DNA of 14,072 bases, taken from contig DVAB01000022.1 of the NCBI GenBank assembly GCA_014189685.1, positions 1 through 14,072 of the forward strand. The letters are read 5' to 3'. The DNA comes from Candidatus Naiadarchaeum limnaeum (GTDB lineage Archaea > Undinarchaeota > Undinarchaeia > Undinarchaeales > Naiadarchaeaceae). A program made the translations under genes and the position numbers. Position 1 is the stretch's first letter. Every line of letters begins with the position of its first letter. This document shows positions 1,125-14,072 of the stretch, one piece after another. The notes under the pieces were generated by a model. That model ran no database searches and was not told the origin of the DNA. It saw nothing but the letters and a program-made list of their open reading frames with translations.

Positions 1125-1662
1125 AGTGTATAACTCTGCAGGCAAACGTAACTGGAAGAAATGTTTTGAACTCCATTTTTGAAAATCCGCCGACAGCAAA
1201 GGAAACAATATCGTAGGAAGTTACAGGGCCGATAAAACTAAAAATAACTAGAGTTGCAACTCCATATTTTGTGAGAAAATTTTGAATCCTCTCGGCTGTT
1301 TTCTTTTCAATTCGCTTTAGGATATATTTCTCGCCCAATTTTCTGCCTGTGTAAAAATTTACAATGTCTGCCACAGTAGAGCGCACAGCAATAAATAACA
1401 GAGCAATAATTGTAGGCTTGTAAAGTTTCATAATTGGAACTACAATTAGCTCGTAAGGAAATGGAAGAAACCACTGGCTTCCAATAAAAGCTGTTAAAAA
1501 ACCTCCAAGCAGTCCATAGCTCTTGGCAAAGTCGCGTGTTTCTGAAATTATTTCTGGATTTTTCTCAATTTGAATTTTAACTATGGCTAAAAAAACTGTG
1601 ATAAATACGAGCGCAAAGATAAAAAATAAAATCGGCTTCCAGTGGTCGCGAAGTTTGAACAT
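1066..1662 (-). CDS. VTT/DedA-type (SNARE-associated) integral membrane protein
   Basis: This 198-residue protein is hydrophobic with about five membrane segments. It matches the VTT (TVP38/TMEM64/DedA) pattern: an N-terminal TM (about residues 11-28), a re-entrant-like segment GSQWFLPFPYE (about 61-71), the GRKLGEKYI element after a TM, and the FIGPVTS...AVGGFSKMEFKTF stretch that corresponds to the family's F-x-P-G/S-x-R re-entrant loop, although the usual arginine is absent. Family members are implicated in lipid scrambling and polyprenyl-phosphate flipping; the substrate here is unknown. It starts 9 nt after the HIT stop codon on the same strand with no promoter-like TATA in between, so the two are probably co-transcribed. 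Its 3' end overlaps 59 bp with the convergent LamG gene. No Shine-Dalgarno motif is present near the ATG at 1662. Confidence 0.82.
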   Translation of the reverse strand: MFKLRDHWKPILFFIFALVFITVFLAIVKIQIEKNPEIISETRDFAKSYGLLGGFLTAFIGSQWFLPFPYELIVVPIMKLYKPTIIALLFIAVRSTVADIVNFYTGRKLGEKYILKRIEKKTAERIQNFLTKYGVATLVIFSFIGPVTSYDIVSFAVGGFSKMEFKTFLPVTFACRVIHFTVALLLADFLLRAAGIAL

Positions 1663-2081: not shown

Positions 2082-2236
2082 TGGACCGGGCGTGATTTTC
2101 GAGCGCTAGCGAGAAATCCAGCGAAATACTATTTCGCTGTCCCTTCTCATTTTATTCGAAGGTGCTCGCGAGAGCATTTGAACACGCGGCCTCCTGCATG
2201 CCATGCAGGCGATCTACCGGGCTGGTCTACCGGCCC
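2082..2236 (-). tRNA. tRNA-Ala(GGC) with an 81-nt insert in the T-loop
   Basis: Read on the minus strand, G1 is at 2236 and the discriminator A73 at 2082. The acceptor GGGCCGG pairs with CCGGTCC, giving the G3:U70 wobble that marks alanine tRNAs. The D-arm is GACC/GATC (one C-A mismatch), the anticodon stem CCTGC/GCAGG encloses the 7-nt loop ATGGCAT with anticodon GGC, and the T-stem GCGTG/CACGC is perfect. The two T-stem strands are separated by TTCAAAT plus 81 extra bases; removing 81 bases restores a normal 7-nt T-loop. The direct repeat AAAT at both boundaries makes the exact position ambiguous (56/57 to 60/61). CCA is not encoded. A T-loop intron is the best reading; a disrupted pseudogene is the alternative, but the paired arms all look intact. 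Confidence 0.86.
2096..2176 (-). other. Probable tRNA intron at T-loop position 59/60
   Basis: Boundaries are given for a 59/60 site, a position known for non-canonical archaeal tRNA introns. In that register both junctions read AA|T. The 3' junction can be drawn as a 3-nt bulge AAT between the T-stem and a short TTC:GAA helix, as in a relaxed bulge-helix-bulge; the 5' junction is in a larger loop, so the motif is not strict. The insert folds into one rod: 2100-2104 with 2164-2168 (CGAGC/GCTCG), 2111-2115 with 2144-2148 (GAGAA/TTCTC), and 2119-2128 with 2130-2139. That last pair is a 10-base perfect inverted repeat around one central base. It contains no protein-coding frame of note. Confidence 0.72.
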
Positions 2237-6603: not shown

Positions 6604-7626
6604 ATGGGAAGCTATAAAGTTGTAGTTTTGCGCGGGGATGGTATAGGACCAGAGGTTATTGAGCAGGCTATAAATGTTTTAAACGCTGTTCAGGATAGCA
6701 TAAAAGGATTAAATTTTCATTTAGTTGTGTGCGATGCAGGAAATTACTGCATCAAAAAGCACGGGACAAATCTTCCAGAGGTTACAATTGATTTTTTGGA
6801 AGAAAGTGATGCATGTTTGAAAGGTCCGATTACAACAATTGAAAATCCAAAAGCGCCGCCTTCTGTTACAGTTGCTTTGAGAAAAATGTTTAATTTGTAT
6901 GCGAATGTGCGGCCTGCAAAAAATTTGCCGAATGTTCCTTCAATTGCGAAAAATGTTGATTTAGTTATAGTAAGAGAAAATACAGAGGGACTTTACTCCG
7001 GGATTGAACAGTTAGTTGGAAAGGATACTGGAATCGCTTTAAGAGTTATAAGCAAAAAAGCATCCGAAAGGATTGCAAAATTTGCCTTTGAGATGGCAAA
7101 AAGGCGCAGTAAACATTTAACTTATGTGCACAAAGCGAATATTCTCCGTCTTACAGACGGGATTTTTGTAAAAGCTGTACAAAATATTGCAAAGAAATAC
7201 AGAAGTGTAAAAGTTGATTCGCAGAGAATAGATGCGATTGCTATGCAGTTGATAAAAAATCCGCAGCAGTTTGATACTATTTTAACCACAAATATGTTTG
7301 GAGATATAATTTCAGATGAGGCTGCGCAGGTTGTTGGGGGAATTGGATTAGCTGCAGGAGCAAATATTGGGGATGATTTTGGGATTTTTGAGCCTATACA
7401 TGGAAGCGCTCCAAAGCATGCTGGAAAAAACAGAGCAAACCCAATAGCAGCAATTTTTTCTGCAAAAATGATGCTTGATTATCTTGGGGAAAATGCAGCT
7501 GCAAGGAAAATTGAAAGCGCGGTTATAAAAGTTTTGAAAGAGAAGAAAGTGAGAACTTATGATTTGGGCGGAAAGGCAACAACAAAGCAGATGGGAGATG
7601 CAATTGCTAAAAAAATTTCAGAGTGA
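6604..7626 (+). CDS. Isocitrate/isopropylmalate dehydrogenase family, most likely isocitrate dehydrogenase
   Basis: The family oxidatively decarboxylates beta-hydroxyacids; isocitrate to 2-oxoglutarate is most likely here. The 340 residues start with VVLRGDGIGPEV (7-18). The substrate segment is PSVTVALRKMFNLYANVRP (86-104): S87 at the isocitrate-binding serine, T89 where E. coli has Asn115, and R93, R103 and R124. Y131, K177 (YVHKANI), D210, D234 and D238 complete the active site. The cofactor region EPIHGSAPKHAGKNRANP (263-280) has K271 and H272 at the E. coli Lys344/Tyr345 positions, which is NADP-like, but A278 at Val351, which is NAD-like. Isopropylmalate or homoisocitrate activity is less likely because the serine is kept, but not excluded. 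The ATG lies 1 nt after the malic enzyme stop without a clear Shine-Dalgarno. Its end overlaps the convergent surface-protein gene by 9 bp. Confidence 0.9.
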   Translation: MGSYKVVVLRGDGIGPEVIEQAINVLNAVQDSIKGLNFHLVVCDAGNYCIKKHGTNLPEVTIDFLEESDACLKGPITTIENPKAPPSVTVALRKMFNLYANVRPAKNLPNVPSIAKNVDLVIVRENTEGLYSGIEQLVGKDTGIALRVISKKASERIAKFAFEMAKRRSKHLTYVHKANILRLTDGIFVKAVQNIAKKYRSVKVDSQRIDAIAMQLIKNPQQFDTILTTNMFGDIISDEAAQVVGGIGLAAGANIGDDFGIFEPIHGSAPKHAGKNRANPIAAIFSAKMMLDYLGENAAARKIESAVIKVLKEKKVRTYDLGGKATTKQMGDAIAKKISE

Positions 7627-10119
7627 ACCCTCTTGGTTTTGTTCTTCTTCTACTGGATAGTTTTCCGTTTCTTTGCTTCGTGATCTATAGAATAGTAATG
7701 AAACTATCGCAATAATAGCGGCTAGAGCAATAGCAATAGTTATCATAGTTTTTGACAATAGTGGCTTTTCAACTTTTTGGGGCGCAGGTTTAGGAGGAGG
7801 TGCTGGAGCTTCCTGAGCAGGCATTGGAACCTCAACAAGCGGTGCCTCGACTTTCGGAGGTGGTTTTGTCCCAAGGCGTAATTTTTCAACAGTCATTCCC
7901 ACTGTTGCAGCTCCTGTAAATTTACTAACTAAAATTCTAAGATCATTAACACCATCCTCATTTACATCAATATAAGTTTGCTCGCCAATGGCTAAATCAA
8001 CTATCAATGGAGTGGAAGTTATTTCAACTGTAACTTTTCCAAGAGCTGTGCTTTTAATCAAAATTGTGTCGTTCTCTGTTTCAGAAAAGTAAACAAGTAT
8101 TTTATCCCCTACACCGACCTCTTCTGTTATGCTATTAATATTCACAGAGAGATTAAATGTTTTTGGAATTCTTTGTATAGTAGCGCTGCCACCACCTGAC
8201 CCTGCTTCGGAAGATGTAGGCGGCACTGATATAACAAAATCATACGCCAAGCTTTTATTTTCCAGTTCGGTGGTTATATTTATCCAGTAATTGTAATTTC
8301 CATTATCGAGCGATGAGGATGTAAGATTTGTAGCAGTATTATTTGAAACATTTCCATTAAATGAGCGGTTTGTTCCATTAACATAGAGAGTTGCCCTTCC
8401 TGTGCTCTTTTTAGTATCAGTAAAATTAAGTTGAATGGAAGGAGTTGAAGTAGTAAAAGTAGTGTTGTTTGCAGTCATAACAAAAATCGTTGGAGTTGAG
8501 TTCACAAAAGCTGAGCCAACTAGATAATTATTATTTTCAATAATTTCTGCATATTTCGCAGCTAAATCCGCAACTGCGCTTATAGTAAAGCCTCCTGTAT
8601 CATTTGAATTTGGAGTCCAGTTAAGGAAATAGGTTTTCTGAGAATTTGAAACGTTTGTAAAAGTCTGAACTGCAGAATCCAGATAAGTTGATGTAAGATC
8701 TGAGTTGTTATAGAGTGAAAGTTGAGGACTATGTATTCCTGCGACAATTTCATTATCTCCATCTCTATCAACATCGGCAACAGCAAGAGATCTAGCATCA
8801 TCAGCTGTTGTTACATTATAAACTGGCCAGAGAGAAATGTTCAAAGTTGTGCCGGTATTGTTGTAAATTGAAATGTTGCCACCGGTGCCACCGGCTAAGC
8901 CTGCAATTACATCATTGTCGCCATCATTATCCAAATCTGCAATTGCAACTGAATAAACAGTAGATGAAGTTGAAACATTATACTCAGTCCACTGAGAAAT
9001 ACCTGTATGACCGGGATTTTGATAAACTGAAACCACAAAGAAATCGTTGCCTGCAACAATATCATTATATCCGTCATTATTTAGATCGCCAATTGCAAGT
9101 GTTTCAATATCGTCTTTAACTGTCCTATTGCTTGTTGGCCATTGGGCAATTGCAAGGCTACCTGTGTTGTTGTAAATTGAAACACGGTCTCCTGCATTCC
9201 CCAATCCAGCAACAACGTCATTATCTCCATCATTGTCCATATCTGCAACTGCAAGCGCGAACAGTAAGTTTGCAGTTGAAACATTGCTTGTTGGCCATTG
9301 TGAGATGTTTAGAATGCCTGTATTGTTAAATATGGAAATTCTATCAGCGGTACCGCCACCAAGGCCGGCAATTATGTCTAAATCCCCATCATTATCCATA
9401 TCCGCTATTGCAAGCCCATAGGCATCCTTCTCTATTGTTATATTATTTGATGGCCACTGAGAGAAATTGTCCCCCGTGTTATTATAAATTGCAACGCGGA
9501 AGGTTCCGCCTACTCCTTGAGTTACACCAGCTGCGATATCTGTATCCCCATCCCCATCCAAATCCCCTGCGCTAACTGTGTCAACATAATTTTGATGTGT
9601 TCTATTTGAGACTTGCCATTGATCGATGTTCAAATGTCCCGGGTTGTAATATGCTAAAAATTGCTTATCGTTTGTACCAGTTACTATGTCGTTATCGCCA
9701 TCATTGTCAATATCGGCAACTACAATTCCTTCAGGATAATCAAGAGTGCTTGCATTAAAACTCTGCAATTTTGTAATATTCGGCCACGCAGAAACACTTT
9801 TAAAAAGTGTCACATTTACATTCCAGCTTCCCAAGCCGGCCGAGCCATTTCCATTTGTAACATTCACTGTCACGTTGATTGTTTGCTGTACTCCTGCCCG
9901 GATCTCAGGAGGAAATGATATATTTGTTATTACAATATCTGGATTAGAAGCTCGGGTAGCATTATAAAATGTTGATGGGACTCCAGTAGGACCGATTAAA
10001 AATCCTTCTCTTAATGGGCCAAAAAAAATCAAAACAAAAAAAACTCCGAAAATAACTAAAATAAAGGTTATAAACTTTGCAAAATTTTTTCCCCCAGCAT
10101 TGAATTTAAGAAATTTCAT
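7618..10119 (-). CDS. FG-GAP/VCBS seven-bladed propeller surface protein, membrane-anchored
   Basis: Of 833 residues, 16-38 form a hydrophobic signal anchor. A beta-rich N-terminal domain (about 55-110) precedes seven D-x-D-N-D-G-D-x-D calcium loops of the FG-GAP/VCBS type, starting at D136, D186, D240, D293, D345, D395 and D449, one every 50-54 residues: an integrin-alpha-like seven-bladed propeller. The fifth loop is degenerate (N347, Y351). A CARDB-like domain (about 477-541, ending ENNNYLVGS), an Ig-like region (about 542-632), a membrane-proximal domain (about 650-748), a Pro/Ala stalk (752-785), a TM helix (about 791-811) and an acidic tail follow. NxS/T sequons are dense. Inferred role: extracellular adhesion or glycan/protein binding requiring Ca2+. 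The ATG at 10119 fits a leaderless start. It is a paralogue of the next upstream gene, which ends 66 bp away on the same strand. Confidence 0.92.
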   Translation of the reverse strand: MKFLKFNAGGKNFAKFITFILVIFGVFFVLIFFGPLREGFLIGPTGVPSTFYNATRASNPDIVITNISFPPEIRAGVQQTINVTVNVTNGNGSAGLGSWNVNVTLFKSVSAWPNITKLQSFNASTLDYPEGIVVADIDNDGDNDIVTGTNDKQFLAYYNPGHLNIDQWQVSNRTHQNYVDTVSAGDLDGDGDTDIAAGVTQGVGGTFRVAIYNNTGDNFSQWPSNNITIEKDAYGLAIADMDNDGDLDIIAGLGGGTADRISIFNNTGILNISQWPTSNVSTANLLFALAVADMDNDGDNDVVAGLGNAGDRVSIYNNTGSLAIAQWPTSNRTVKDDIETLAIGDLNNDGYNDIVAGNDFFVVSVYQNPGHTGISQWTEYNVSTSSTVYSVAIADLDNDGDNDVIAGLAGGTGGNISIYNNTGTTLNISLWPVYNVTTADDARSLAVADVDRDGDNEIVAGIHSPQLSLYNNSDLTSTYLDSAVQTFTNVSNSQKTYFLNWTPNSNDTGGFTISAVADLAAKYAEIIENNNYLVGSAFVNSTPTIFVMTANNTTFTTSTPSIQLNFTDTKKSTGRATLYVNGTNRSFNGNVSNNTATNLTSSSLDNGNYNYWINITTELENKSLAYDFVISVPPTSSEAGSGGGSATIQRIPKTFNLSVNINSITEEVGVGDKILVYFSETENDTILIKSTALGKVTVEITSTPLIVDLAIGEQTYIDVNEDGVNDLRILVSKFTGAATVGMTVEKLRLGTKPPPKVEAPLVEVPMPAQEAPAPPPKPAPQKVEKPLLSKTMITIAIALAAIIAIVSLLFYRSRSKETENYPVEEEQNQEGSL
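8710..9738 (-). repeat. Seven tandem FG-GAP/VCBS blade repeats (coding)
   Basis: Residues about 128-470 of the surface protein repeat a unit of roughly 52 residues: an (A/V)xADxDNDGDxDIxAG calcium loop, then a hydrophobic strand with YNNTG, and a QWPxxN(V/R)(S/T) closing segment. Seven copies is the number expected for a closed propeller. Confidence 0.9.
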
Positions 10120-10141
10120 ATGAATATTTATCTATTATCTA

Positions 10142-10149
10142 ATATAAAA
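10142..10149 (-). promoter_or_regulatory. TATA box for the seven-bladed propeller gene
   Basis: The minus strand reads TTTTATAT, centred 26.5 bp before the A of the ATG at 10119. It lies in the 66-bp gap after the upstream paralogue, so this gene is probably transcribed on its own as a leaderless mRNA. Confidence 0.68.
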
Positions 10150-10185
10150 TAATTTAGGCGCCAAACTTTCAGCAAAAAGTAGATA

Positions 10186-13100
10186 TTACTCCTCTTCTTT
10201 TTTCCTCTGCAATCTTCGTATTTCAGAGGCAGTATATCCCATTCTTCTCAAATTCTCAATTCGCTGTTTCTTTAGTTCGCGCGCGAGCAAAAGCTTTCCT
10301 TCCAACACTTCTTTTTGCCTTATCTCTATATAATTTTGATGCGCCCCAACTATAACTATTGAAAAAATTGCAGCTAAAATAACAGCAACAACAATTGTCG
10401 CCGGGATATTTGTTGGCTGCTCAGCCCGCTCAATTATTTTTATAGGAAGTATTGGAGCTGTTATAAGAGGCGGCCGGGTCTCTACAACAGTTTTTGGAAT
10501 TGCAACTTTTGGCGGTGGTTTTGCTTCCAAGCGAAGTTTTTCAACGCTCATTTCAACTGTTGCTGCTCCTGTAACTTTATTCACTAAAATTGCGAGATCA
10601 TTTTCTCCATCCCTGTTAACATCAACAAACGCTTTTTGACCAGGGGTTACATCAACTATCAGGGGAGTTGAATTTATTTCAAGGGTAACTTTTTGAGGTG
10701 TTATTTTCTTAACAGTAATTGTGTGCTTTTCGCTTTCGCCAATAGGTTGCAATACACCCCCAACGCGCTTTCTCAATGCAACTCTGGAATTGTTGTCAAA
10801 AGTAAACTGATAGTAGTTTTCATTATTCTGTGCGCGGAAGATAATTCCTGCAATTGTATTTTTGCTTCTGGTCTCAATACTAACTTTTGTTTCGTAACTA
10901 TAGTCTCTCCAACTGCTGTTTCCTGAAAATGATAACTGCTCAACAGAGATGAGACTGTCCTGCGTGTACACTTTTCTTGAGGCGTCCCAAGTTCCACCGC
11001 TCGTTTGCCAGTTTTTCGCTTGGCCATCATCAAAATCTTCTGTGAATGGGCGATAGGTCTCGCCAGGCACCCCTATTATTTCTCTAACTCGGATATCATC
11101 AAACGCTGCAGCAGTTCCAAATGTCTTTAATCCGATTTTTCCGCTTCTGAAAGTGAAATCATCAGTTTCAAAAACTCTTTGATCATCAATATGTGCGGTT
11201 ATCCGACCACCATTAGCAGTGATACGGAAAGTGTAGTAAAGGCCACCTTGGAATGAATAGAATTTTTCATTTTCGCCAAAAGAAATTTCAACGCTCCCAT
11301 CTACAGGGAAGTCATCAATAATTTTTATAACCTCGTCCACAGGAATCTTTATAACTTTTTTAAAACGCACTCTTTCAATTCCTATTCCTATAGTTTCCCC
11401 GCCTCCACCTGGCTGAGAAGAAGGTATATTAGAGCTTTGTGTAAGTGGAGCATAGTCACCTTTATAAGAAATGTTTCCAGAAGCGGTGTAGGGAATTAAT
11501 GTGTCTCCTAAATAGTCTCCGGTGATATCTGTGCCTGTGTAATCACCCCAGTAGTTTCCTGCTATAAATGTGCGACCCACTATATTTACACCAGAGGTTT
11601 TGCTTATATTCCAACTGTTTCCTGGATTTGTTGAATTGTCAAAAACGTTTATTGTATTGCCAGAAATATAATTATTATAAATTGTATTGTTAACACTATT
11701 ATTTCTAAGATCGGTTATGTTTATTCCAACATTATTGTTTGAGATATTGTTGTATGAAATAAGTATATTTGTAACATTGCAGCTGCTTAGGGCAGCATCC
11801 AAAGAAATTCCATTTTTCGAATTCAGATAAACAGTATTATTTCCAACAATTGTTCCGTTTTCGCAGTCAATAACAATTCCATTGCTGCTGTTGTAAACAG
11901 TATTGTTTAGGATAATGTTTGGTTTTGAGGAGATAGAACTATAGGAGTAAATAGCGAAGTTAGTTATGTTATAAACAGTATTGTTAAATATTGTGTTATT
12001 TCCAACGTTAACATCAATTGCGTTGCTTATATTAAAGATGATATTTTTCTCTATAAGATTTCCATATCCCGGCACTTGAGGAACGCCGGCACTAGTGATT
12101 TGTATTCCTGTCGAGCCTGAAGGTCCAGATACATTGCCGGAGATGGTGTTATTCGCAATAGTATTATTGTTTGATATGTGAAACCTTAGATGTATTGTAG
12201 CAGCCCTCGCAAAGGTATTATTTGAGATTGTTGTGTTGTTGCTATATTGAAATAAAACGGATTCAAAACCATCGTCGGTTCCATTAAAAATTGTGTTATT
12301 GGTTAGGTTTAGATCAACTACACTGTTGAGCCAGATTTGCCTTTCAGTATTGTTCCAGATCGTATTGCCTTGAATGATGCTATTGTTCGGGCCGCCAAGT
12401 GAAGTATTTGAAAAAATCCCATAAGTATAGCCAGTTAAGCTACAACCTTTTATAGTAATGTTTTTTCTTCCGCTAACTTCTATTGCACTAGTTGAATATG
12501 ATGGCGAGTTATTCCCTCTTATTGTAGCCCCATTACAATCAAAAACCAAATTGTTCGTGTTTATTGAAATTATAACGTGGTTATCATTTGAATCATTCAT
12601 CAAATAAGTTCCTGCGCAAAGAGTTGTGGAGACATTTGCAACATACTCGTTATAGCCGCTCAAGTTTGTGCAGGGAATAACTACTAGCGGGAGATAATCG
12701 CCGCCAGTTACAATGTTCCCAGAGGAGGTGTAGGGAAGAAGAGTATCCCCTATTCCATCCAAGTCGGTATCAGTTCCGCTGTAATCGCTCCAGAAATTTC
12801 CGCCAATATTTGGTCCGCCAATTATGTTTGTGCCTGCGGTTTTTGAGGTGTTCCAAAAGTTTCCAATTGTGCTGTTGTCCTTCGCCGCGGCAACAGTAAA
12901 GTTGCTTATGTAATTGTTGTAAATTGTGTTTCTTGAAGCAGTTTGCCCTTCAACTCCGTTATTTAGTGAACCGCTCAAATTAAAAGCAGTTTCAACATTT
13001 GAAATATTATTTGAAAAAATTGTGCTGTTGTTTGTGCCATCAAGCCCGATAGCAATTGCAGTTCCGCTTGGATCGGAGACATTGTAAATAGTATTGCCGT

Positions 13101-14072
13101 GTATTGTAAGGTTTTCCATATGATAGGCATAGATTGCAAAAGTTGAAATGTTGTAAATTGTATTATTAAATATAGTAACATTTTTTATAGCAGAAGCAGA
13201 GGATGCTGTTATGTCAATCCCTACGCTTAAATTATGGAGTGTGTTATTTTGTATTGTGATATTTTCTTGGGTGCCGCCGTTAAGCATTATACCTTCGTTT
13301 ATGTTAGAGCCGGCTCTAAAGATAGAATTGGTTATGCTCACATTAGCTGCAGTCTCCATACTTATCCCTGGCTGGTTTGCCACTTCAATAGTTAAATTGG
13401 TTAGATTTACATAAGAGTTTCCTGCTGTGCTGCCTGCTATGAGGTAAATCTCGCAACAACTGCTAACAGTGGAGTTAAAGATTGTTGTGTTGTAAATTGT
13501 AGTAAAGTTTGAATTACTAACCCTAATTCCGCCGTGAAAGTAATCCCTAACATTGCATCCATGAATTGTGGTATTATTTTTATCAGCAATGTAAATTCCG
13601 TAGTTTAAAGCAGATGCTCTGGTTATAGTCGCGCCGTTGCAGTCTAAATCAGTGTTGTTTGCATTGATAAAAATAGCCCCGGCATTGCTGTCTGTGTCGT
13701 TCATCGGATAAGTTCCAGGGCAAAGCCTTGTTGAATTATTCACAGAATAGTCATTCAATCCCTCGAGAGAAACACAGTTTATGGATGCTGGGCCAACAAT
13801 ATAATTGTTTGATTCAATTGTTTCCCCAAATCTTCCGCTCAAATCTGCAACCGCACTTATGTTAAAACTTCCGCTTGCTGTTAGGCTTGGGGTCCAATTG
13901 AGGAAATATGTTTTTTGTTGGTTTGTAACATTTGTAAAGGTTTGAATCTGCGAGTCTAAGTAAGTGCTTCCAACTTCAGAATTATTAAAAAGAGATATGT
14001 TTAGATCGTCATTATTAATAATGATTAAATCAATGTCTCCATCAGTATCAAAATCTCCAACTACTGGGTGGC
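10186..14072 (-). CDS. Giant surface protein: FG-GAP, CARDB, tandem NosD beta-helix, concanavalin-like, TM anchor (5' partial)
   Basis: The frame runs open to the right edge; a TTG at 13842 is not a credible start because 76 in-frame upstream codons encode homologous domains. Residues are numbered from that TTG. Upstream lie one FG-GAP loop (DFDTDGDIDLI) and a CARDB-like domain. Two tandem NosD-type right-handed beta-helix modules follow (about 23-388 and 391-800), each with repeated N(N)TIYN-like rungs and a GNFWSDYxGTD or GNYWGDYxGTD closing motif. Then come a Gly-rich linker (811-815), concanavalin/LamG-like segments (about 855-920 and 932-1035), a membrane-proximal domain (about 1036-1105), a Pro-rich stalk, a TM helix (1147-1167) and a basic, charged, probably coiled cytoplasmic tail (1171-1218). 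It is extremely Asn-rich with dense NxS/T sequons. NosD-type helices usually bind or cleave carbohydrates; no catalytic residues can be assigned. Inferred cell-surface recognition protein. Confidence 0.9.
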   Translation of the reverse strand, partial: HPVVGDFDTDGDIDLIIINNDDLNISLFNNSEVGSTYLDSQIQTFTNVTNQQKTYFLNWTPSLTASGSFNISAVADLSGRFGETIESNNYIVGPASINCVSLEGLNDYSVNNSTRLCPGTYPMNDTDSNAGAIFINANNTDLDCNGATITRASALNYGIYIADKNNTTIHGCNVRDYFHGGIRVSNSNFTTIYNTTIFNSTVSSCCEIYLIAGSTAGNSYVNLTNLTIEVANQPGISMETAANVSITNSIFRAGSNINEGIMLNGGTQENITIQNNTLHNLSVGIDITASSASAIKNVTIFNNTIYNISTFAIYAYHMENLTIHGNTIYNVSDPSGTAIAIGLDGTNNSTIFSNNISNVETAFNLSGSLNNGVEGQTASRNTIYNNYISNFTVAAAKDNSTIGNFWNTSKTAGTNIIGGPNIGGNFWSDYSGTDTDLDGIGDTLLPYTSSGNIVTGGDYLPLVVIPCTNLSGYNEYVANVSTTLCAGTYLMNDSNDNHVIISINTNNLVFDCNGATIRGNNSPSYSTSAIEVSGRKNITIKGCSLTGYTYGIFSNTSLGGPNNSIIQGNTIWNNTERQIWLNSVVDLNLTNNTIFNGTDDGFESVLFQYSNNTTISNNTFARAATIHLRFHISNNNTIANNTISGNVSGPSGSTGIQITSAGVPQVPGYGNLIEKNIIFNISNAIDVNVGNNTIFNNTVYNITNFAIYSYSSISSKPNIILNNTVYNSSNGIVIDCENGTIVGNNTVYLNSKNGISLDAALSSCNVTNILISYNNISNNNVGINITDLRNNSVNNTIYNNYISGNTINVFDNSTNPGNSWNISKTSGVNIVGRTFIAGNYWGDYTGTDITGDYLGDTLIPYTASGNISYKGDYAPLTQSSNIPSSQPGGGGETIGIGIERVRFKKVIKIPVDEVIKIIDDFPVDGSVEISFGENEKFYSFQGGLYYTFRITANGGRITAHIDDQRVFETDDFTFRSGKIGLKTFGTAAAFDDIRVREIIGVPGETYRPFTEDFDDGQAKNWQTSGGTWDASRKVYTQDSLISVEQLSFSGNSSWRDYSYETKVSIETRSKNTIAGIIFRAQNNENYYQFTFDNNSRVALRKRVGGVLQPIGESEKHTITVKKITPQKVTLEINSTPLIVDVTPGQKAFVDVNRDGENDLAILVNKVTGAATVEMSVEKLRLEAKPPPKVAIPKTVVETRPPLITAPILPIKIIERAEQPTNIPATIVVAVILAAIFSIVIVGAHQNYIEIRQKEVLEGKLLLARELKKQRIENLRRMGYTASEIRRLQRKKEEE
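11443..13776 (-). repeat. Tandem duplication of a ~370-400-residue NosD/PbH1 beta-helix module (coding)
   Basis: Module 1 covers 12679-13776 and module 2 covers 11443-12672. Each opens with a C-x(17)-C-P/A-G-T-Y-x-MND cap, then DCNGATI and (H/K)GC, so C23, C41, C68 and C96 recur as C391, C409, C436 and C467. Each closes with the G-N-(F/Y)-W-x-D-Y-x-G-T-D motif, followed by GD(T)L(L/I)PYT(S/A)SGNI and GDY(L/A)PL. Within each module PbH1 rungs of about 22-25 residues repeat. Confidence 0.88.

Follow-up and report, generated by a model that had tools for sequence, protein, structure and literature searches.

Introns at non-canonical positions are a recognized feature of archaeal tRNA genes, with 673 reported across 217 genomes (PMC8450103). 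Asgard tRNAs are very intron-rich (PMC11291895), and T-arm introns have been described in Archaea (PMC6379350; PMC12397907; PMC3293823), with examples from Thermoproteales, Caldiarchaeum, ARMAN-1/2, Thaumarchaeota and Atabeyarchaeia. Intron transposition has been described in Thermoproteales (Fujishima et al. 2010, cited in PMC4090602 and PMC4033280). Among the splicing endonucleases (EndA), only the (alpha beta)2 and epsilon2 forms remove relaxed motifs efficiently (PMC6379350), and loop-bearing enzymes go together with diverse introns (PMC6379350; PMC12397907). A literature search that left several primary papers uncovered returned no account of T-loop introns in the lineage studied here and no broader survey covering small-genome archaea.

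The tRNA-Ala(GGC) gene described here lies in the window, our term for the whole stretch of DNA analysed (14,072 nucleotides), which is contig C6 of an archaeal host genome of 984 kb in 52 contigs that is 98% complete. By direct reading the gene is complete on the minus strand with every helix intact, and its T-loop is split between positions 59 and 60 by an 81-nt insert. We put the probability at about 0.92 that this insert is a genuine tRNA intron cut by the archaeal splicing endonuclease, one whose core would have spread between tRNA genes and then received a nested insertion. It belongs to a kind already known in archaea and would use an ordinary mechanism; of specialist note are the spread with nested growth and the relaxed junctions beside an EndA of alpha4 type only. 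With the described T-arm introns it shares the T-loop position, conservation of the tRNA body, the presence of several introns in one genome and the occurrence of two introns in one tRNA (Leu in the host); its junctions would be of the bulge-helix-bulge (BHB) type, relaxed on the 5' side. It differs from them in the lone alpha4-type EndA without the Crenarchaea-specific loop (CSL), in its 81-nt length and in its nested hairpin block. As in the Thermoproteales transposition, near-identical introns occupy tRNAs that differ in identity within a single genome, whereas here the genome is that of a small-genome archaeon, a single insertion site (59/60) is used and a nested insertion would have followed.

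The acceptor stem pairs GGGCCGG with CCGGTCC, followed by A73, and contains G3:U70. The T-stem is formed by GCGTG (2187-2183) and CACGC (2094-2090), and the T-loop reads TTCAAA, the insert, then T. A sequence-only reading of the window had already described the intact helices, including G3:U70, and an 81-base interruption of the T-loop at 2096-2176, and our parse agrees with it to the base (Table 1). A HIT-family gene, recognized by eye at 1672-2073, starts 8 bases past the tRNA 3' end on the same strand, so a common transcript is possible. Elsewhere in the window, 7618-13842 encodes two large repeat proteins with FG-GAP-like and NosD-like repeats (by eye), probably secreted or membrane-anchored.

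Table 1. Features of the interrupted tRNA-Ala(GGC) gene, in window coordinates; splice sites and helices are predicted.
Feature	Position	Strand	Description
tRNA-Ala(GGC) gene	2082..2236	-	Mature form of 74 nt and intron of 81 nt; anticodon at 2202-2200
5' exon	2177..2236	-	Positions 1-59; ends ...GCGTG TTCAAA; from sequence and junction parse
Intron	2096..2176	-	81 nt, between positions 59 and 60; homologue in Leu(CAA)
3' exon	2082..2095	-	T60 to A73; read from sequence
Predicted 3' splice site	2095..2100	-	Central-helix GAA (2100-2098) followed by the 3-nt bulge AA|U (2097-2095)
Predicted 5' splice site	2176..2182	-	Central-helix UUC (2182-2180) followed by AAA|U; relaxed
Core helix, 5' strand GCUCUCGCGAG	2165..2175	-	From fold; common to Leu and Lys introns
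Core helix, 3' strand CUCGCUAGCGC	2103..2113	-	Two 1x1 mismatches in Ala
Hairpin 1 of nested block, CCUUC...GAAGG	2142..2162	-	Differs from the Leu copy by two compensatory changes
Hairpin 2 of nested block, CAGCGAAAU-AGU-AUUUCGCUG	2119..2139	-	Third copy in the host genome at C7:80353-80372

In its unspliced form the gene receives no ARAGORN call and no Rfam cmscan match at the gathering score, and a permissive cmscan of the locus gives a single truncated match (18.5 bits, model positions 8-63). Searching with and without the insert, as the sequence-only reading had proposed, separates the two states: ARAGORN is silent with the 81 nt in place and calls tRNA-Ala(GGC) once they are deleted. That reading had also linked a pseudogene to the existence of a second intact tRNA-Ala(GGC). 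The 98%-complete genome yielded none; its tRNA inventory consists of RF00005 matches in the loci examined rather than an exhaustive archaeal-mode scan. Two other arrangements were set aside. An Rfam scan of the locus detected nothing beyond the partial tRNA, and family models show no catalytic core of a self-splicing group I or II intron in the 81-nt insert; a split or permuted tRNA is rejected because both exons sit in order at a single locus.

A DNA search of the host genome with the region recovered the same insert on contig C25 (92% identical) and fragments elsewhere. The sequence-only reading had advised looking for further interrupted tRNAs. At the places recovered by the DNA search, site 59/60 is also interrupted in tRNA-Leu(CAA), tRNA-Lys(CTT) and tRNA-Arg(TCG); partial RF00005 matches likewise served to find interrupted tRNAs. 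The Leu gene, on C25, carries an 80-nt T-loop intron together with a second, canonical 37/38 intron. Its T-loop insert matches that of Ala at 74 of 80 aligned bases, the Lys insert corresponds only to the outermost 35 nt of its Leu counterpart (34/35 identical), and the Arg insert, at the same site, is a related one. Chance is excluded, since three tRNA genes have this insert at an identical position and a fourth has a relative of it. Because Lys carries only the outer 35 nt, the longer form is resolved into a 35-nt core and a block of ~46 nt, which in Ala and Leu consists of two hairpins. The nested block explains the 81-nt length, and the earlier view of that length as unusual outside Thermoproteota was wrong or at least overstated.

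The Ala, Leu and Lys inserts might instead be alike because parts of tRNA genes were recently converted or duplicated, an account that concerns origin only and is compatible with splicing. Duplication is the simpler explanation in G001, a genome of the same order to which JALTGF01 belongs, where the two tRNAs with a common insert are both Ser isoacceptors. In the host, however, the Ala, Leu and Lys bodies differ while their inserts are nearly identical, and Ala-Leu BLAST identity is limited to the insert and the adjoining T-loop; for these three genes we consider conversion or duplication unlikely as the origin and favor movement of the intron.

Comparison of the copies also bears on function. 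In hairpin 1, two double changes between Ala and Leu (U-A to C-G in each case) keep pairs 29:43 and 34:38, a pattern that rests on these two sequences. One core-helix pair is lost in Ala, where the helix has two 1x1 mismatches; in Leu and Lys it is perfect except for one bulge. This decay counts against the intron, since it would also fit an early loss of function, and it is also a point for a rival account, in which insertion of a palindromic element into the T-loop would have inactivated the gene. Such a pseudogene is further favored by a copy of hairpin 2 with its flanks in a non-tRNA stretch at C7:80353, and by a stretch resembling the intron tail that precedes an ORF at C13:5646. Against it stand the intact exon helices and the lack of any other Ala(GGC) gene among those found, the same or a related insert in Leu, Lys and Arg, the compensatory changes, and the restoration of a tRNA by every removal (15 of 15 T-loop inserts in three genomes, described below). 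The RF00005-derived inventory of the host loci examined holds no duplicate gene for any of the anticodons GGC, CAA, CTT and TCG. The same observations, together with the presence of an EndA gene, are among the points in favor of the intron, and we regard disruption of the gene as very improbable.

For a spliced intron, we propose that the T-stem would act as the outer helix, with UUC (positions 54-56) pairing with GAA near the intron end as a short central helix. In an expressed precursor, the endonuclease would cut at AA|U twice, within the 3' bulge and on the 5' side, and exon ligation would give a normal T-loop, TTCAAAT. The 35-nt core would have spread among the Ala, Leu and Lys tRNA genes, with its relative in Arg, and insertion of the two-hairpin block into the core in Ala and Leu would have produced the forms of 80-81 nt.

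The predicted structures are consistent with this scheme on the 3' side and relaxed on the 5' side. The whole-gene fold beats shuffled sequences (z = -2.5, with 5 of 200 shuffles equally good), as does the fold of the T-arm with the insert (z = -2.4, 3 of 200). Within the insert, the core helix forms three stacked segments and bears two hairpins, giving a branched rod and not a single linear one; the sequence-only reading had described a rod-folding insert of three stacked helices. At the 3' junction a 3-nt AA|U bulge adjoins the T-stem, and at the 5' junction a 4x2 internal loop follows the 3-bp UUC/GAA helix with no strict bulge; that reading had noted both the 3' bulge and the lack of a strict 5' bulge. 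The BHB features at the Ala junctions are a 3-nt 3' bulge, a 3-bp central helix and a relaxed 5' side. The Arg(TCG) junction is a strict BHB (UUCA/UGAA, bulges AA|C and UA|U). Where Arg has UGAA, the Ala, Leu and Lys introns have UCGAA, and their 5' side is relaxed because this sequence places A57 opposite C (or allows A57-U across a bulged C). Relative to the minimum free energy (MFE), a forced 3-bp central helix costs 0.7 kcal/mol in the Ala and Leu introns, with about 3 kcal/mol more for the 4-bp bulged-C form, and 3.8 kcal/mol in the Lys intron. Were the insert never removed and the tRNA used with an expanded T-loop, the seven conserved T-loop bases would be split internally, and strict or relaxed BHB motifs nevertheless fit the junctions in 15 cases in the presence of an endonuclease gene. 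Of the alternatives, we give retention of the insert the least credence.

The host genome has one PF01974 and one PF02778 match, both in a single ORF of 176 aa (EndA), and searches with these two profiles found no second subunit. The best sequence match of the protein is the M. jannaschii homotetramer (1A79, 1.6e-36). In an alignment where the N-terminus of the 1A79 row was completed by hand, and where that row serves as a guide only, the catalytic Tyr, His and Lys are kept and an insertion found in genome families f7 and f14, which we read as the CSL, is missing. Sequence comparison thus points to an alpha4-type enzyme without CSL; neither an (alpha beta)2 EndA with CSL nor an epsilon2 EndA with ASL, the types of broad specificity, was found in the host. 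The sequence-only reading had recommended identifying the subunit type and had suspected an endonuclease of wide specificity; a heteromeric enzyme of this kind is not supported by the single 176-aa gene. Three of the four T-loop introns of the host (Ala, Leu and Lys) have an imperfect 5' junction, and such relaxed junctions beside an alpha4-type EndA only are a point against the intron. Strict T-loop BHBs in alpha4 genomes fit the rule connecting endonuclease loops with introns; the relaxed junctions of the host do not obviously do so.

Among genomes with T-loop introns, classed by EndA match count and ORF length rather than by structure, 31 including the host have a single EndA match in an ORF of ~170-215 aa, and in f7 and f14 EndA is encoded by two separate genes. 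The small-genome family f10, with EndA ORFs of ~390 aa and several T-loop introns in each genome, resembles the epsilon2 EndA/ARMAN intron system (PMC12397907), from which the host differs in lacking the epsilon2 enzyme type. Short EndA proteins with a longer Tyr-His stretch (e.g. YDRGVQLKKGPKSQKEHT) were seen at locus L172 (genome G330) and in f16 and f47, with PF01974 spans of ~279-282 rather than 252-261 bases. As f16 genomes also contain up to seven T-loop introns each, a further specificity loop is possible.

T-loop introns recur in relatives of the host. G001 has them in Ser(TGA), Ser(CGA), Glu(CTC), Pro(TGG) and Phe(GAA); for its first shared insert ARAGORN gives Ser(TGA) and not Leu. 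Six occur in G011, from a more distant family (in Ala, Cys, Ser, two Arg and His), all with the full 4-bp central helix. The tRNA-Ala(GGC) of another member of the order (G002) is uninterrupted, and the Ala intron was therefore gained or lost within the order. BLAST matches of the tRNA in relatives always end at the T-loop, with or without an intron, and are by themselves uninformative on intron presence; the loci were therefore read by eye. All 15 T-loop inserts from three genomes have a T-loop starting TTCRA and a 3' bulge whose last base, next to the T-stem, is U; nearly all share the 3' splice layout of Ala, and 9 of 15 have the full 4-bp central helix. ARAGORN detects none of the 15 unspliced and all 15 after removal of the insert, two of them with its intron option, as a second, anticodon intron is present.

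A covariance model of the interrupted T-arm (R1) was built from trimmed training sequences, some rows lacking one base and two G011 rows having padded loops. In the examined loci, shorter introns score at least 19 bits and intact tRNAs at most 17 bits; the two introns of ~80 nt are not seen there, and introns near this length are missed or under-scored (Ala, 19.9 bits). Over 394 archaeal genomes, 82 have at least one match, in about 44 families and with many genomes of 0.6-1.2 Mb; among good-quality genomes the count is 64 of 298. The figure of 82 is a lower bound, since the filters are strict (the host Arg(TCG), at 36.1 bits, was missed) and introns of ~80 nt score weakly. In the 30 best loci, to which confirmation extends (weaker matches were checked in part), 7/7 acceptor and 5/5 T-stem pairs are present in every case. 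The full 4-bp central helix occurs in 29 of these 30, a proportion biased by the preference of R1 for such helices, and intron lengths are 15-45 nt compared with 81 nt in Ala, R1 disfavoring long introns. T-loop introns are thus not confined to Thermoproteota, and with at least 82 of 394 genomes positive the supposed concentration in that group is not borne out. Overall, the earlier reading of an archaeal 59/60 intron whose BHB is good in the 3' half and relaxed in the 5' half stands, without its Thermoproteota bias, heteromeric endonuclease and view of length. At locus L046 (genome G080, ~1470-1565, minus strand), a tRNA-Ala(GGC) with no ARAGORN call has ~24 nt in its acceptor 3' strand, probably a non-canonical intron.

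The closest named record to the AsnRS of the window is the archaeal MAG JALTGF010000019 (77%), followed by MAGs labelled Lokiarchaeota, Woesearchaeota and Micrarchaeota, which suggests a DPANN-like placement of the host. Membership in Thermoproteales is unlikely given the 984-kb genome, the alpha4-type EndA and the AsnRS matches to DPANN-labelled MAGs.

Introns at 59/60 are common across small-genome archaea, and since ARAGORN misses them, the tRNA sets of small genomes may look incomplete when they are complete. The 31 T-loop-intron genomes with a single short EndA of alpha4 length offer a test case for co-evolution of endonuclease loops (CSL, ASL) and unusual introns. We tentatively hypothesize that the T-loop introns here are small mobile units copied between tRNA genes and grown by a nested palindrome, with relaxed junctions cut by a plain alpha4 EndA lacking CSL and ASL. 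Cutting of relaxed junctions by such an enzyme, if true, would contradict the rule that ties relaxed introns to loop-bearing endonucleases.

Other tRNA loci of the host also attracted attention. Downstream of tRNA-Cys, C8:2298-2367 (L075) resembles the 3' part of a tRNA but lacks a clear 5' counterpart and is possibly a tRNA remnant or split piece. The tRNA-Trp(CCA) at C41:211-501 (L083) has a 215-nt canonical intron containing a dispersed palindromic element, GACTACATTNGGG ... CCCNAAATAGG. This element also lies beside other tRNAs, and its 13-mer has five exact copies in the genome as against 0 for the reversed control. A further copy adjoins the tRNA at C21:7470-7710 (L072, L085), whose ~169-nt anticodon-side intron (ARAGORN) contains GCTCGC-rich palindromes.
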